Assembly (NCBI GenBank): GCA_027035885.1
Contig: JALVTR010000075.1
Location: 1-36,573 of the forward strand
Direction of reading: 5' to 3'
From: Desulfurellales bacterium
GTDB taxonomy: Bacteria; Campylobacterota_A; Desulfurellia; Desulfurellales; Hippeaceae
DNA length: 36,573 bases
The notes beneath the pieces were generated by a model that saw only the letters and a list, made by a program, of their open reading frames with translations, searched no databases and was not told the origin of the DNA. The first letter of the stretch is position 1, and each line of letters opens with the position of its first letter. Of the stretch, positions 27,566-36,573 are shown in pieces. Made by a program: the position numbers and the translations under genes.

Positions 27566-28504
27566 TTATTTTTCCTCAAGTGCCTTAATCAAATCAACAA
27601 TAAACACGTTAAAGGGCACACCTAACCCAAGATCCTTTGCAAGATTAACAACAATACCATTTAAAGAATCTATTTCAGTCTTATTTCCCATTCGTATGTC
27701 TTGCAACATAGAAGATCTATGCTTAGCAGTTGTAGGAACAAGCGTTGAGTAAAATACCTCTCTATAATCATCAACGTTATTCCAGAACGTGCTAAAACCA
27801 CACGCCCCCATTACCTTGAACACTTCTTCCAAAATCCTATTCATAATTTCCCGAGTATATTGTATCTCAGCCAGCTTTCCATACTCCACATCCAAGATAG
27901 CTCCCAAAGGATTCAAAGCGCAGTTGTAAAGCATTTTCGCCCACAAATGTTTATCCACATCATAAGACACTTTCGCGTCAAACCCTCCGGCGACAAACAC
28001 ATCTACCAAGTTTGATATTTTATCAGATAATTCTTTGACAAAGATATTGCCTATCATCAGGCTATCTGCATGAACCGTTATTTCCACCTCGTTCCTTTTG
28101 TGTCTGTAGAAACCCGTTATAATTCTGCTTGCAAAAACCCTCTCTTTACCAAAACACTCTACAAATTTTTCAGCATTCCCCCACCCGTTCTGTATAACGA
28201 CCAGCTTAGAATCACATACACTATCCTTAATGCTGCACAGCTCTTTTGCAATTTCATCATTAGCTTTAGTTTTCGTAGTAATAAGAATATAGTCGAAGTC
28301 ACTTGTGCTATTAAAATCCTCCAAAATACCGTACTGATAAGCTTCAAAAGAGTAATCACCAAATATACCAAAAACCCTAAAACCACTTCTAAGGTGCTTT
28401 GCTGTTTCACTTTTGCAAAGAAAACTCACTTCAACGCCAGCATTTATCAAAAAAGCACCAAGACCTAAACCAACTCCACCTGAACCAACGATTAAAACCC
28501 TCAT
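27566..28504 (-). CDS. panE: 2-dehydropantoate 2-reductase (ketopantoate reductase, PanE/ApbA)
   Basis: MRVLIVGSGGVGLGLGAFL; VIQNGWGNAEKF; KHLWAKMLYNCALNPLGAILDVEYG; HRSSMLQDIRMGNKTEIDSLNGIVV. Confidence 0.93.
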   Translation of the reverse strand: MRVLIVGSGGVGLGLGAFLINAGVEVSFLCKSETAKHLRSGFRVFGIFGDYSFEAYQYGILEDFNSTSDFDYILITTKTKANDEIAKELCSIKDSVCDSKLVVIQNGWGNAEKFVECFGKERVFASRIITGFYRHKRNEVEITVHADSLMIGNIFVKELSDKISNLVDVFVAGGFDAKVSYDVDKHLWAKMLYNCALNPLGAILDVEYGKLAEIQYTREIMNRILEEVFKVMGACGFSTFWNNVDDYREVFYSTLVPTTAKHRSSMLQDIRMGNKTEIDSLNGIVVNLAKDLGLGVPFNVFIVDLIKALEEK

Positions 28505-28791
28505 ATCTCAACATCCAACAACGGTATATAAAAATTCGCACCAAGACAATCGGTATCGCTCAAAGACCCAGCCGCAGAATCTCTTAAAAAGGAAACCTTC
28601 AACGTATTTATAGCGTTACACTTAAAATAATACACCCTGTCATTTTCAAATAATTTACAGAAAAAGTCCTTATTCAACTTAACTTTGGCCCTTTCATAAA
28701 ACTCCTTATTTTTGAAAATAATATCTATTGTTATATGCCAAACACCGGCGTTTTTGCTCCTTAAGACCTTAGCAGCTTCCTTTAGTTTCAA
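28501..28791 (-). CDS. DUF4387 family protein
   Basis: LRSKNAGVWHITIDIIFKNKEFYERAK; 4-nt overlaps with both the AtuA-like and panE genes; DUF4387 is commonly encoded next to AtuA-family genes. Confidence 0.75.
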   Translation of the reverse strand: MKLKEAAKVLRSKNAGVWHITIDIIFKNKEFYERAKVKLNKDFFCKLFENDRVYYFKCNAINTLKVSFLRDSAAGSLSDTDCLGANFYIPLLDVEI

Positions 28792-30119
28792 AACTCTATC
28801 TCCTCTAACCTAAAATAGTTATTCAAATTTTCTTCGACAATATGATACATGCTAAACTCGTAAACTTCGCCCACATCTATTTCAGCAGGTGAATAAGGAA
28901 AGGCCACATTTGCACCTGTTGCAATGCGGCCCCTATAATCGTAATGCTGTAAAGTTGATTTGACAACAGAACAAACCTTGTGGGCAAACGCCCGTTCATC
29001 TGCCACAACATCAACAATTAAGCCAATCTCATGGAGATTACTGTCAAACTCCATACTCCCCAAAACACCATTCTTTCCGTACTGTCTAAAGTTCAATACA
29101 AAACCTTTTCCAAATCTATTTTCAGCCTGCTGTCTCACATCATTCAGAATATCATCCAAAACGGTTATCATATACGGATTTCTTACGCCCATTATAGCTA
29201 TAGTCCTAAAGCCAGAATGTTTAGCTCCTTCTATCTTAAAAGTGGGTTTTCGCCTCTCTTTCCATTTAGCTCCATAGACCTTTACCGTTCTTTCATCGAA
29301 CTGCTCATACCTTGCATCTTCTAAAAAGAGCGTGCCATCAGGCTCTTTTATAACAAAGGGATTTGCGTTTTCATAAAGTGTATGTGCCATTGCCGAATCC
29401 GCAGTACATTTACGAAATTCATTGGGGGGCTTTAAGTAGAACGCATCATAATCTATCCAACCTAGCAAAGCATCTGATGGGCTAGCTGGTTTTGCGCACA
29501 GCGCACCACATTCAATAATCTTAGCCATATGCCAAACCAAAGCTGGATCACAGCCTTTAAGCAAAGGATATGCAGCATAAATCGATGCATCTGTCGCCCT
29601 TCCACCAACAACAAGATCTGCTCCTTTTTCCAAAGCCTCTATAAATCTTTCCACACCAATTTGGGCAACAATATGAGTGGAGTTGTTGATTTCTTTTTCC
29701 GTTAAAGTTGGATTCCCCTCATAGTTTTTTATTTTTCCTCTTCTTAAAAGATTTAACACAGTGTCTCTGTCAAGTTCTGAGTGAATTATCGCCACCTTGA
29801 AGTGCAAACCGTTATCCTTCGCTATATCTTCAACGATTTCCATAAATTTTGACAGGTGTTCATCACTTCCAGCATAGCCAGCAGAGCCAATAATAAACGG
29901 TATATTTTTAGCAATTGCTGAAATTAACGGAAACTCCAAATCCGAGCGCGTTGCATCGTAATTGGCCTTCATGTTACCAGAACCCAAAAAGTAAGGCCCT
30001 GAGTCAATGGAACCAGCATCCACACCTATAAAATCAACACCTTCATTCATAGCCTTTATGAAAGAATCCCTGTTATAACCGTATCCCAGCTGACCCATTA
30101 AAGACAGTGCTTTTAGCAT
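28788..30119 (-). CDS. AtuA-like / DUF1446 (acyclic terpene utilization) family protein
   Basis: GYGYNRDSFIKAMNEGVDFIGVDAGSIDSGPYFLGSG; GSAGYAGSDEHL; VAQIGVERFIEALEKGADLVVGGRATDASIYAAYPLLKG. Confidence 0.85.
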   Translation of the reverse strand: MLKALSLMGQLGYGYNRDSFIKAMNEGVDFIGVDAGSIDSGPYFLGSGNMKANYDATRSDLEFPLISAIAKNIPFIIGSAGYAGSDEHLSKFMEIVEDIAKDNGLHFKVAIIHSELDRDTVLNLLRRGKIKNYEGNPTLTEKEINNSTHIVAQIGVERFIEALEKGADLVVGGRATDASIYAAYPLLKGCDPALVWHMAKIIECGALCAKPASPSDALLGWIDYDAFYLKPPNEFRKCTADSAMAHTLYENANPFVIKEPDGTLFLEDARYEQFDERTVKVYGAKWKERRKPTFKIEGAKHSGFRTIAIMGVRNPYMITVLDDILNDVRQQAENRFGKGFVLNFRQYGKNGVLGSMEFDSNLHEIGLIVDVVADERAFAHKVCSVVKSTLQHYDYRGRIATGANVAFPYSPAEIDVGEVYEFSMYHIVEENLNNYFRLEEIEF

Positions 30120-31359: not shown

Positions 31360-32154
31360 TCACAGGTAAGAATGCTCATCAGTTGGAAATTCCTTATTTT
31401 TCACCTCAGAGATGTACGTCTGTACGGCCTCAAGCGCTATTTTTTTCAAATGGGCATACCTTTTAACAAACTTCGGCTTAAAGTCATCAAAAAGACCAAG
31501 CATATCATGATAAACCAAAACCTGTCCATCCGTATGAACACCCGCACCGATACCTATTGTAGGAACACCAATAGACTCCGTTATCTCCTTTGCTAATTGC
31601 TTTGGAACAGATTCCAACACTATTGAAAATACACCAGCATCTTCCAAATACTTAGCATCCTCCTTGATTTTTTGTGCCTCTTTATCTTCCTTGCCGCGTG
31701 CCTTGTAAGAACCAAAAATATTAATAGATTGAGGAGTCAAACCAAGATGACCCATTACAGGAATGCCAGCCGCAACAATGCTATTAATCGTTGGTACAAA
31801 CTCCCTGCCCCCCTCAAGCTTCACAGCATCACATTCTGTCTCTTTTAAAATCCTGCCAGCGTTCTTGACAGCCTCTGCATAATCAGCCTGATAGCTCATG
31901 AATGGCATATCAACAACAATCAATGCATTTTTAGCGCCCTGCCTAACCATCTTTGCATGGTATATCATTTCATCTACCGTCACAGGAATTGTAGAGCTCT
32001 TACCCTGCATAACCATTGCAAGAGAATCACCGACAAGTATTATATCAATGCCTGCCTCGTCGGCGATACGGGCAGATGTGTAATCGTAAGCGGTAATCAT
32101 AGAAATCTTTTCCTTGCCCTTCATGGATTTAATTTTTGGAACTGTAATAGCCAT
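31360..32154 (-). CDS. panB: 3-methyl-2-oxobutanoate hydroxymethyltransferase
   Basis: MITAYDYTSARIADEAGIDIILVGDSLAMVMQG; VKLEGG; PVMGHLGLTPQSIN; TIGIGAGVHTDGQVLVYHDMLG. Confidence 0.97.
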   Translation of the reverse strand: MAITVPKIKSMKGKEKISMITAYDYTSARIADEAGIDIILVGDSLAMVMQGKSSTIPVTVDEMIYHAKMVRQGAKNALIVVDMPFMSYQADYAEAVKNAGRILKETECDAVKLEGGREFVPTINSIVAAGIPVMGHLGLTPQSINIFGSYKARGKEDKEAQKIKEDAKYLEDAGVFSIVLESVPKQLAKEITESIGVPTIGIGAGVHTDGQVLVYHDMLGLFDDFKPKFVKRYAHLKKIALEAVQTYISEVKNKEFPTDEHSYL

Positions 32155-32181
32155 AATCTCCCCCTTTCTTCTTAGCTAAAT

Positions 32182-32218
32182 AAAAAAGCCTGAATGCACG
32201 ACTCATGCGCATTCAGGC
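32182..32218 (-). terminator. Intrinsic terminator between folK and panB
   Basis: Minus strand GCCTGAATGC-GCATGAGTCGT-GCATTCAGGC-TTTTTTA: 10-bp perfect stem (32209-32218 / 32188-32197) followed by a T-run. Confidence 0.85.
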
Positions 32219-32292
32219 CAAATAAACTTACATTATAATGGTTCAAAGCCCCAAATTGGGGTCTTTTACCTATACAGTACAATAAAAACTCC

Positions 32293-32775
32293 TTAACAGG
32301 TCTCGAGGCTGTCTTTGCCTTCGAGCCTTTGTTGAAGTAATCTCAATTCTATTCCATTAAGTTTAAGTCCCGCCTCAAGTTCAACTAACGGCTTAACTAC
32401 AAATAACCTTCGATGGGCATACTTATGTGGCAATGTTAATTTCTCCCTATTTAAAATTGTATTCTTATGTGCAATTATGTCAATATCAATTGTTCTCGGT
32501 CCCCACTTAAATTTCTTAATTCTACCTAATTTCTTTTCTATAGATTTGACAAACTTAAGTAAATCAATAGGGTTTAAATCACAGTCAGTTTTTAGAACAA
32601 CATTGCAGAAATTTTTTTGCCCTTTATAACCCCACGGCTTACTTTCATAAAATTTAGATGCCTTAATAACTGTAACTCTTTTAGAAAGATATACTACAGC
32701 CAATCTTATATTTTTTTTCCTATTGCCAACGTTGCTTCCCAAACCCAGATAAACCCACCTGTTATACAATGGCAC
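32293..32775 (-). CDS. folK: 2-amino-4-hydroxy-6-hydroxymethyldihydropteridine diphosphokinase
   Basis: YLGLGSNVGNRKKNIRLAV; KFYESKPWG; NVVLKTDCDLNPIDLL; FKWGPRTIDIDIIAH; LPHKYAHRRLFVVKPLVEL. Confidence 0.95.
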   Translation of the reverse strand: MPLYNRWVYLGLGSNVGNRKKNIRLAVVYLSKRVTVIKASKFYESKPWGYKGQKNFCNVVLKTDCDLNPIDLLKFVKSIEKKLGRIKKFKWGPRTIDIDIIAHKNTILNREKLTLPHKYAHRRLFVVKPLVELEAGLKLNGIELRLLQQRLEGKDSLETC

Positions 32776-35087: not shown

Positions 35088-35113
35088 TAAAAAACGGGGG
35101 CATTTGCCCCCGT
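35088..35113 (-). terminator. Intrinsic terminator of the APC permease gene
   Basis: Minus strand ACGGGGGC-AAAT-GCCCCCGT followed by TTTTTATT; perfect 8-bp GC-rich stem (35106-35113 / 35094-35101), 20 nt past the stop. Confidence 0.9.
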
Positions 35114-35133: not shown

Positions 35134-36573
35134 TTAAGAATGAGGCAACTCTCTCATTGTGTCTTCTAATGATTTTCCTTTTTTCTTAGCTTTGTTATAT
35201 GCAAGGTAGTATATAAATCCACCTATTGCCATGACTATTATCCATTGTACAATTGACTGAAGATACCACTTTTGATTTAAGCTCGTGGTAATACCCTCGA
35301 TAAATAACCAAGATGGAGCAAATATAGCAATTAAAGCCGCAAAAATTACTAAAATATTGTGTTTGAGTGCTGATTCTTTTTCCAAATGAGGGGCATGGTC
35401 CATAAAAGTTAATGCCGTAATTCCAACAGAAACATACATAAATAAAGCTGCAGCTGAAACAACGGATATCTCAGTAGCCCATCCAAACCACACTGTAAGC
35501 AAGAAGAATAGAGTAACAATCAATGTGTTCACGGTTACAGAAACAGCTGGAACACCTCTGTCGTTAATATTTCCCATCCATCTCGGTAAAATTTCATCAA
35601 CACCCCATGAATAAAATAATCTTGTGAGGGTTTGATATATTGGTGGCAAATCATTGAATAAGGCAAAAGCAACCATCAATGTAACAAATGCTGCTATCGC
35701 TTCTGGCATTACATAACCCATCAAAGCAGGTCCGTTAATTAGGGAGGAATGACCAGCAAGAAGCTGACCTAAAATATACTGCCATGGTACTGTGTGGTAT
35801 ACACCAACGGCATAAAGAATAAAATATACCGTTATAATAACCACAGCCAAAGGAAAGGCTATTGCCAGAGTTCTTTTTGGATTCTTTGTTTCACCTGAAG
35901 CTTGAGACATAGAGGTAAATCCAACGAAGGCAAAAAACATAATGAACAGAGCTTTAGGTAAATCAGAAAGAGAAGCTACAGGAGCCTTTGCTTTTCCCAA
36001 AGCGATGTAGTGATTCATGTTTATTCCATGAGCTTGGAGAGCTTTAGCATAATCAGAAGGTGTATTGGCTAAACCGTAATAGATTATAAAGAACCCTCCA
36101 AGGAACATCAGTATCATCAAAACAATAGACGTCCATCCTACTGACTTAATGCTTATAATATGAATAAGCCATACAAACCATATTATGCCAAGTCCTATAA
36201 TAATAGTGCCTACAGGTGAGTTAATCCAATGGCCTAAGCCGGTCAAGCCTATCTGATTAAAGAATGTACCAAAAAAGTTAGGGTCAAAATAAGCTATTGC
36301 ACCCGCGGCTGCAGCTTGCGCTAGCCAGAAAGAAAATGAAGATAAAAATCCCATTGCTCCTTTCCAACCTCTGCTCACCCACACATATTCACCGCCGGCT
36401 CTTGGCATGGCCGACCCCAAATATGAGTAAGTGATAGCAATAAATAGAGCCACTACACCATCGATAAGCATAACCAATGGGAGATGTGGTCCTATCCCTA
36501 CAACTTTCCCCTGAATTTGGACGGAAACGTAATTTATTCCGCCACCAATGACATTGTCAACACCAAGAGCAAT
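35134..36573 (-). CDS. APC-superfamily amino acid permease (5' truncated at window edge)
   Basis: Frame stays open to the window end (IALGVDNVIGGGINYVSVQIQGKVVGIGPHLPLVMLIDGVVALFIAITYSYLGSAMPRAGGEYVWVSRG...). Amino-acid permease topology; SQASGETKNPKRTLAIAFPLA motif. Confidence 0.9.
   Translation of the reverse strand: MALGVDNVIGGGINYVSVQIQGKVVGIGPHLPLVMLIDGVVALFIAITYSYLGSAMPRAGGEYVWVSRGWKGAMGFLSSFSFWLAQAAAAGAIAYFDPNFFGTFFNQIGLTGLGHWINSPVGTIIIGLGIIWFVWLIHIISIKSVGWTSIVLMILMFLGGFFIIYYGLANTPSDYAKALQAHGINMNHYIALGKAKAPVASLSDLPKALFIMFFAFVGFTSMSQASGETKNPKRTLAIAFPLAVVIITVYFILYAVGVYHTVPWQYILGQLLAGHSSLINGPALMGYVMPEAIAAFVTLMVAFALFNDLPPIYQTLTRLFYSWGVDEILPRWMGNINDRGVPAVSVTVNTLIVTLFFLLTVWFGWATEISVVSAAALFMYVSVGITALTFMDHAPHLEKESALKHNILVIFAALIAIFAPSWLFIEGITTSLNQKWYLQSIVQWIIVMAIGGFIYYLAYNKAKKKGKSLEDTMRELPHS

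Follow-up and report, generated by a model that had tools for sequence, protein, structure and literature searches.

A conserved, structured leader before panB in a Hippea-like Desulfurellales genome: probable transcription attenuator with divergent tandem pan-type RNA

The window, i.e. the whole stretch of 36,573 nucleotides that was analyzed, carries on its minus strand a gene series assigned with Pfam in the order aminotransferase, folK, panB, panC, panD, an AtuA-family gene, a DUF4387 gene and panE. The ketopantoate hydroxymethyltransferase gene panB (31360–32154, minus; PF02548, E 3.5e-118) is the first gene of panB-panC-panD-AtuA-DUF4387-panE and is separated from folK by a gap of 138 nt, near the end of which a ribosome-binding site, GGGGGAG (32158–32164, minus), was read directly 4–10 nt before the ATG at 32154. 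The nearest named relatives of the locus are from Hippea sp. and from Desulfurellaceae and Desulfurellales assemblies, and the source genome is accordingly described as Hippea-like. The AtuA-family and DUF4387 genes lie between panD and panE (28501–30119, minus), within the pantothenate cluster. Elsewhere in the window, a strong minus-strand terminator (ACGGGGGCAAATGCCCCCGT-TTTTT, 35094–35113) is found just past a large open reading frame (35134–36477) that is transporter-like by sequence, and is considered as an ordinary transcription-unit end; 3' of it lies a promoter matching 11/12 consensus positions (34783–34756), upstream of a Sua5/YrdC-family gene.

A strong intrinsic terminator was detected by terminator scan in the panB leader on the minus strand (32182–32219), in which a stem of 13 pairs (32219–32187; 7 G-C) closes a loop of 7 nt and is followed by the tail TTTTTATTTA, with the T-run extending to 32182. 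The preliminary description had placed a strong terminator here with a stem of 10 bp, which is to be corrected to 13 pairs with G-T counted; its distance of about 27 nt between terminator and panB ATG was reproduced (32182 versus 32154), and its argument that this space is too short for a promoter agrees with an arrangement that is conserved across Desulfurellales. A matching terminator was present in all 18 Desulfurellales leaders examined, with stems of 11–20 pairs followed by T's and stem ends located 20–33 nt from the panB start. The region holds no excess of terminator-like sites in general (5 observed, 4.9 expected), so the weight of this terminator rests on its conservation. Folding of the folK-panB gap gave −39.3 kcal/mol, with a z-score of −2.93 relative to dinucleotide shuffles.

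Alignment of the leaders revealed two tandem hairpins upstream of the terminator, termed H1 and H2; in each, one A is bulged out of either strand, and five pairs separate the two bulges. H1 (32295–32330, minus; AAAGG-CUCGA-A-GGC..GCC-UCGAG-A-CCUGU) overlaps the last folK codons, and H2 (32240–32270, minus; GGU-AAAAG-A-CCCC..GGGG-CUUUG-A-ACC) lies within the gap; H2 has one mismatch, its outermost middle pair being A.G in the window and A-U in genomes G006 and G012, where H2 is fully paired. The second GC hairpin described earlier at about 32248–32260 is real, and represents only the tip of this longer H2 (32270–32240). Both hairpins were tested for covariation in the aligned leaders. In H1, 9 of 13 pairs were changed on both sides with 95% of cells paired, and the covariation score was 0.501 against 0.210 for shuffled alignments and a maximum of 0.109 for slid controls; in H2, 4 of 11 pairs were changed on both sides with 94.7% paired, and the score was 0.328 against 0.188. 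None of 500 shuffles reached either score, a count that is not to be read as a probability because the aligned leaders are related to each other. The inner stem of G001 and of the two Desulfurella rows was set aside in these tests because of gaps. Four H2 pairs never vary, the AAG/CUU middle helix is invariant, and the number of double-changed H2 pairs is not above that of the shuffles; covariation is strong for H1 and moderate for H2.

In the G001 leader folK ends before H1 and the hairpin is still kept (GCGGG-CUUUG-A-UGG..CCA-CAAAG-A-CCCGC), so that H1 is no by-product of folK coding. H1 is perfect in most Hippea leaders and in Desulfurella; in the genera designated g2–g5 it is reduced to its outer stem and lacks both bulged A's, and H2 and the terminator remain. 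H2 is kept in all Desulfurellales leaders. The minimum-energy folds of most leaders recovered one or both hairpins together with the terminator.

The hairpin geometry was formulated as a descriptor of the pan unit, the architecture discussed below (3 bp, 5 bp, A, 3 bp, loop, 3 bp, 5 bp, A, 3 bp), and searched on both strands of the 36.6-kb window. H1 was the single perfect match, and H2, located 27 nt after H1, was among 16 further matches with one mismatch; the background in unrelated loci is about one perfect match per 40 kb (22 in 888 kb). A model of H1-H2, termed R1 and built from eight Hippea-genus leaders, was searched against 25 genomes of the phylum. In 19 of them, including genomes outside its training set, it matched the panB leader and gave no other confident match, with Desulfurella recovered only at E 0.02–0.13. 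No further copies of the element were found in the genome, and a weak match in G001 (E 0.29) was rejected as a further copy as it lies inside a coding frame.

A predicted promoter was located inside folK (32456–32483, minus) with TTGACA (32483–32478), a 16-nt spacer and TACAAT (32461–32456), matching 11 of 12 consensus positions; only three sites with at least 11/12 occur on both strands of the whole window. At the equivalent position, 11–12 of 12 matches were observed in the 8 Hippea-genus leaders scanned, in all three Desulfurella leaders, in G012 and in L019, a leader from a sister family; the promoter was not found in six leaders of genera g2–g4. Because the −35 hexamer shares bases with a conserved FolK motif, independent evidence is limited to the −10 element and the spacing. 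The transcription start predicted from this promoter lies near 32449, and the promoter, if used, would yield a leader of about 295 nt containing H1, H2 and the terminator. Given the conservation of this promoter in most relatives, separate transcription of the leader, ending at an attenuator, is possible, and the location of the promoter upstream of the whole element is consistent with the earlier proposal that panB transcription either starts upstream of or within the hairpin or reads through from folK. The TATAAT-like box noted previously in the gap is indeed present (32237–32232), but it is not conserved (CATAAT, ATACAG and others in relatives); as a panB promoter it was rejected on this ground, and because its start would fall at the terminator.

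Judged by sequence only, the terminator lies in the 5' leader, downstream of the predicted start and upstream of panB, and the succession of promoter, paired elements, terminator and ribosome-binding site is the order of a transcription attenuator. Sequence comparison establishes the two covarying hairpins, the terminator and the promoter-like sequence, and shows that these follow one another in a conserved order. The panB leader is judged to be a real, conserved regulatory leader. The attenuator-type leader anticipated by the preliminary description is well supported, given a structured RNA, a terminator, and an order and spacing conserved across Desulfurellales, with the folK promoter upstream. 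We consider it likely that the folK-panB gap together with the folK end encodes a transcription attenuator based on tandem pan-type RNA of a divergent form; termination in vivo, its regulation, the effector and the sign of control are what we infer from it.

The pan motif (RF01749), as published, is made of stems with bulged A's that mostly occur as two tandem copies ahead of panB, panC or panD (Weinberg et al. 2010, PMC2864571), and is a known orphan regulatory RNA upstream of these same genes. Rfam search of the whole window returned no family at cut-off, permissive filters giving chance-level matches only, and RF01749 had no match in the window either at its gathering threshold (36.2 bits) or at E<=10; nor did it match in the 25 genomes of the phylum. 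Conversely, R1 did not find the Rfam pan loci. The preliminary statement that no known class was recognised accordingly holds at the level of Rfam cut-offs, but in its architecture the element corresponds to the pan motif. Both show two bulged A's on opposite strands with 5 bp between them, both are arranged in tandem units with comparable linkers (31 nt in the Rfam consensus, 27 nt here), and both precede the panB-panC-panD operon. RF01749 does match panB leaders in other phyla (L023, L028, L029 and L031), and in the first three of these the Rfam pan units are likewise followed by a terminator before panB; with its inner stem shortened to 2 bp, the descriptor recovers the Rfam units of L028, L029 and L031 as well. 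The differences are that the canonical inner pairs are A-UC..GA, in contrast to A-GGC..GCC in H1 and A-CCCC..GGGG in H2, that one mismatch is present in the H2 middle helix, that H1 overlaps the upstream folK gene, and that the clade, Desulfurellales, is without any RF01749 match. As RF01749 and R1 miss each other's loci, relatedness rests on geometry and gene context, and as architecture and context match in spite of the Rfam scores, the element is termed a pan-like variant. It looks like a divergent form of the pan motif, with which it may share ancestry.

Leaders from other families add to this comparison. The L019 leader (family f3) contains a perfect pan-like unit, TGC-ATCCC-A-TCT..AGA-GGGAT-A-GCA, in the equivalent position, about 176–148 nt before panB and close to where folK ends. 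The bases next to its bulged A's are the canonical A-UC..GA, folK carries a 12/12 promoter, and panB is preceded by a terminator. This unit is a single case, and may be an intermediate between pan and the pan-like variant. In L024 and L025 (family f4) only some 42 nt separate folK from panB and no terminator was apparent, and the end of folK in L025 harbours a single pan-like unit; regulation of panB may differ or be lost in these two. A weak match to half of the Rfam pan model about 110 nt before panB in a further leader (L129; G058:C44:12967-13001) suggests single-unit pan RNAs below the Rfam threshold. The divergent variant of Desulfurellales suggests that such regulation is more widespread than the Rfam pan model indicates.

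The mutual failure of RF01749 and R1, together with inner pairs and loops unlike the Rfam consensus, would also suit a separate, non-homologous RNA class that has converged on the pan geometry and has its own effector. We regard this as unlikely, because the two bulged A's with 5 bp between them, the tandem order and the target gene are all common to pan, the linkers are of similar length, and in L023, L028 and L029 a terminator likewise stands between the Rfam pan units and panB. For the same target genes, the novel riboswitch-like element contemplated by the preliminary description is a poorer reading than a pan architecture. Metabolite riboswitches with terminator platforms share with the panB leader the succession of leader RNA, terminator and biosynthetic genes, but the stems here are simple and no pocket is evident. 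That the leader, as a separate class or as a pan relative, binds pantothenate, pantoate or CoA by itself appears to us improbable; a 2022 review counts CoA among the cofactors without a known riboswitch (PMC9971707), and RNA-alone binding of any of the three, if true, would be the first RNA sensor of the cofactor pathway.

Attenuation by a leader peptide was considered on account of an open frame (32172–32282, minus) that begins with an SD-like AAGGAG and a TTG start and runs through H2 and the terminator. Such a small ORF (..KRPxxGALSH) would be translated through H2, and ribosome stalling would decide termination. The frame is open for at least 22 codons in all 18 leaders, with the other two frames closing early, the SD-like sequence and the TTG are conserved, and length changes are mostly multiples of three. 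Against it, the coding test was not significant (p about 0.17, 17% of column shuffles being as good), third-position bias is absent and there is no codon run for a relevant amino acid. In G012, H2 is even better, but an in-frame start is lacking and the frame closes directly behind H2, and Desulfurella reads the conserved 5' half of H2 in another frame. A conserved translated short ORF is disfavoured, the RNA bases and not the frame being kept in G012 and Desulfurella; probably there is no conserved leader peptide, and control by ribosome stalling is very improbable. It is just as improbable that an unregulated terminator merely closes the folK unit, the hairpins being incidental and panB being expressed through sufficient readthrough or from a promoter that escaped notice, for although post-gene terminators are ordinary and the scan sees no regional excess, the 27 nt leave no promoter space, H1 and H2 covary, a promoter lies upstream of the terminator and none between it and panB, and the arrangement is kept in 18/18 leaders.

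For the attenuator with divergent pan-type RNA, the following course is proposed. Transcription would start at the folK-internal promoter or read through from the upstream genes, and the nascent RNA would fold H1 and H2 and then meet the terminator, which lies immediately ahead of the panB ribosome-binding site. An effector reporting pantothenate or CoA status would recognise the bulged-A hairpins and set the fraction of polymerases passing the terminator into panB-panC-panD-panE. This effector could be a metabolite or, as has been suggested for pan RNAs, a dimeric protein; termination in the replete cell is our guess for the sign of control. Alternatively, the bound hairpins might act on polymerase or ribosome directly. 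A competing helix that would pair the 3' strand of H2 with the 5' arm of the terminator, as an antiterminator, can be drawn; it clearly beats shuffled arms in two leaders only (G013 and G018), and 38% of shuffled arms do as well in the window.

PyrR-type and other protein-controlled attenuators place a structured leader and an intrinsic terminator ahead of a biosynthetic operon. The panB leader resembles them in all three elements and is likened to them by architecture, the difference being that here no regulator or antiterminator is identified. Pan leaders in Bacillus and Paenibacillus appear in transcriptome papers, and no paper identifying the pan effector was found in the open-access literature searched. 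With a divergent variant, independent covariation, an adjacent terminator and a conserved promoter, the panB leader of Desulfurellales would offer a compact system for finding the reader of the bulged A's. Moreover, the variant distinguishes features that appear essential, namely the bulged A's, the 5-bp spacing and the tandem arrangement, from those that appear dispensable, such as the neighbouring bases.
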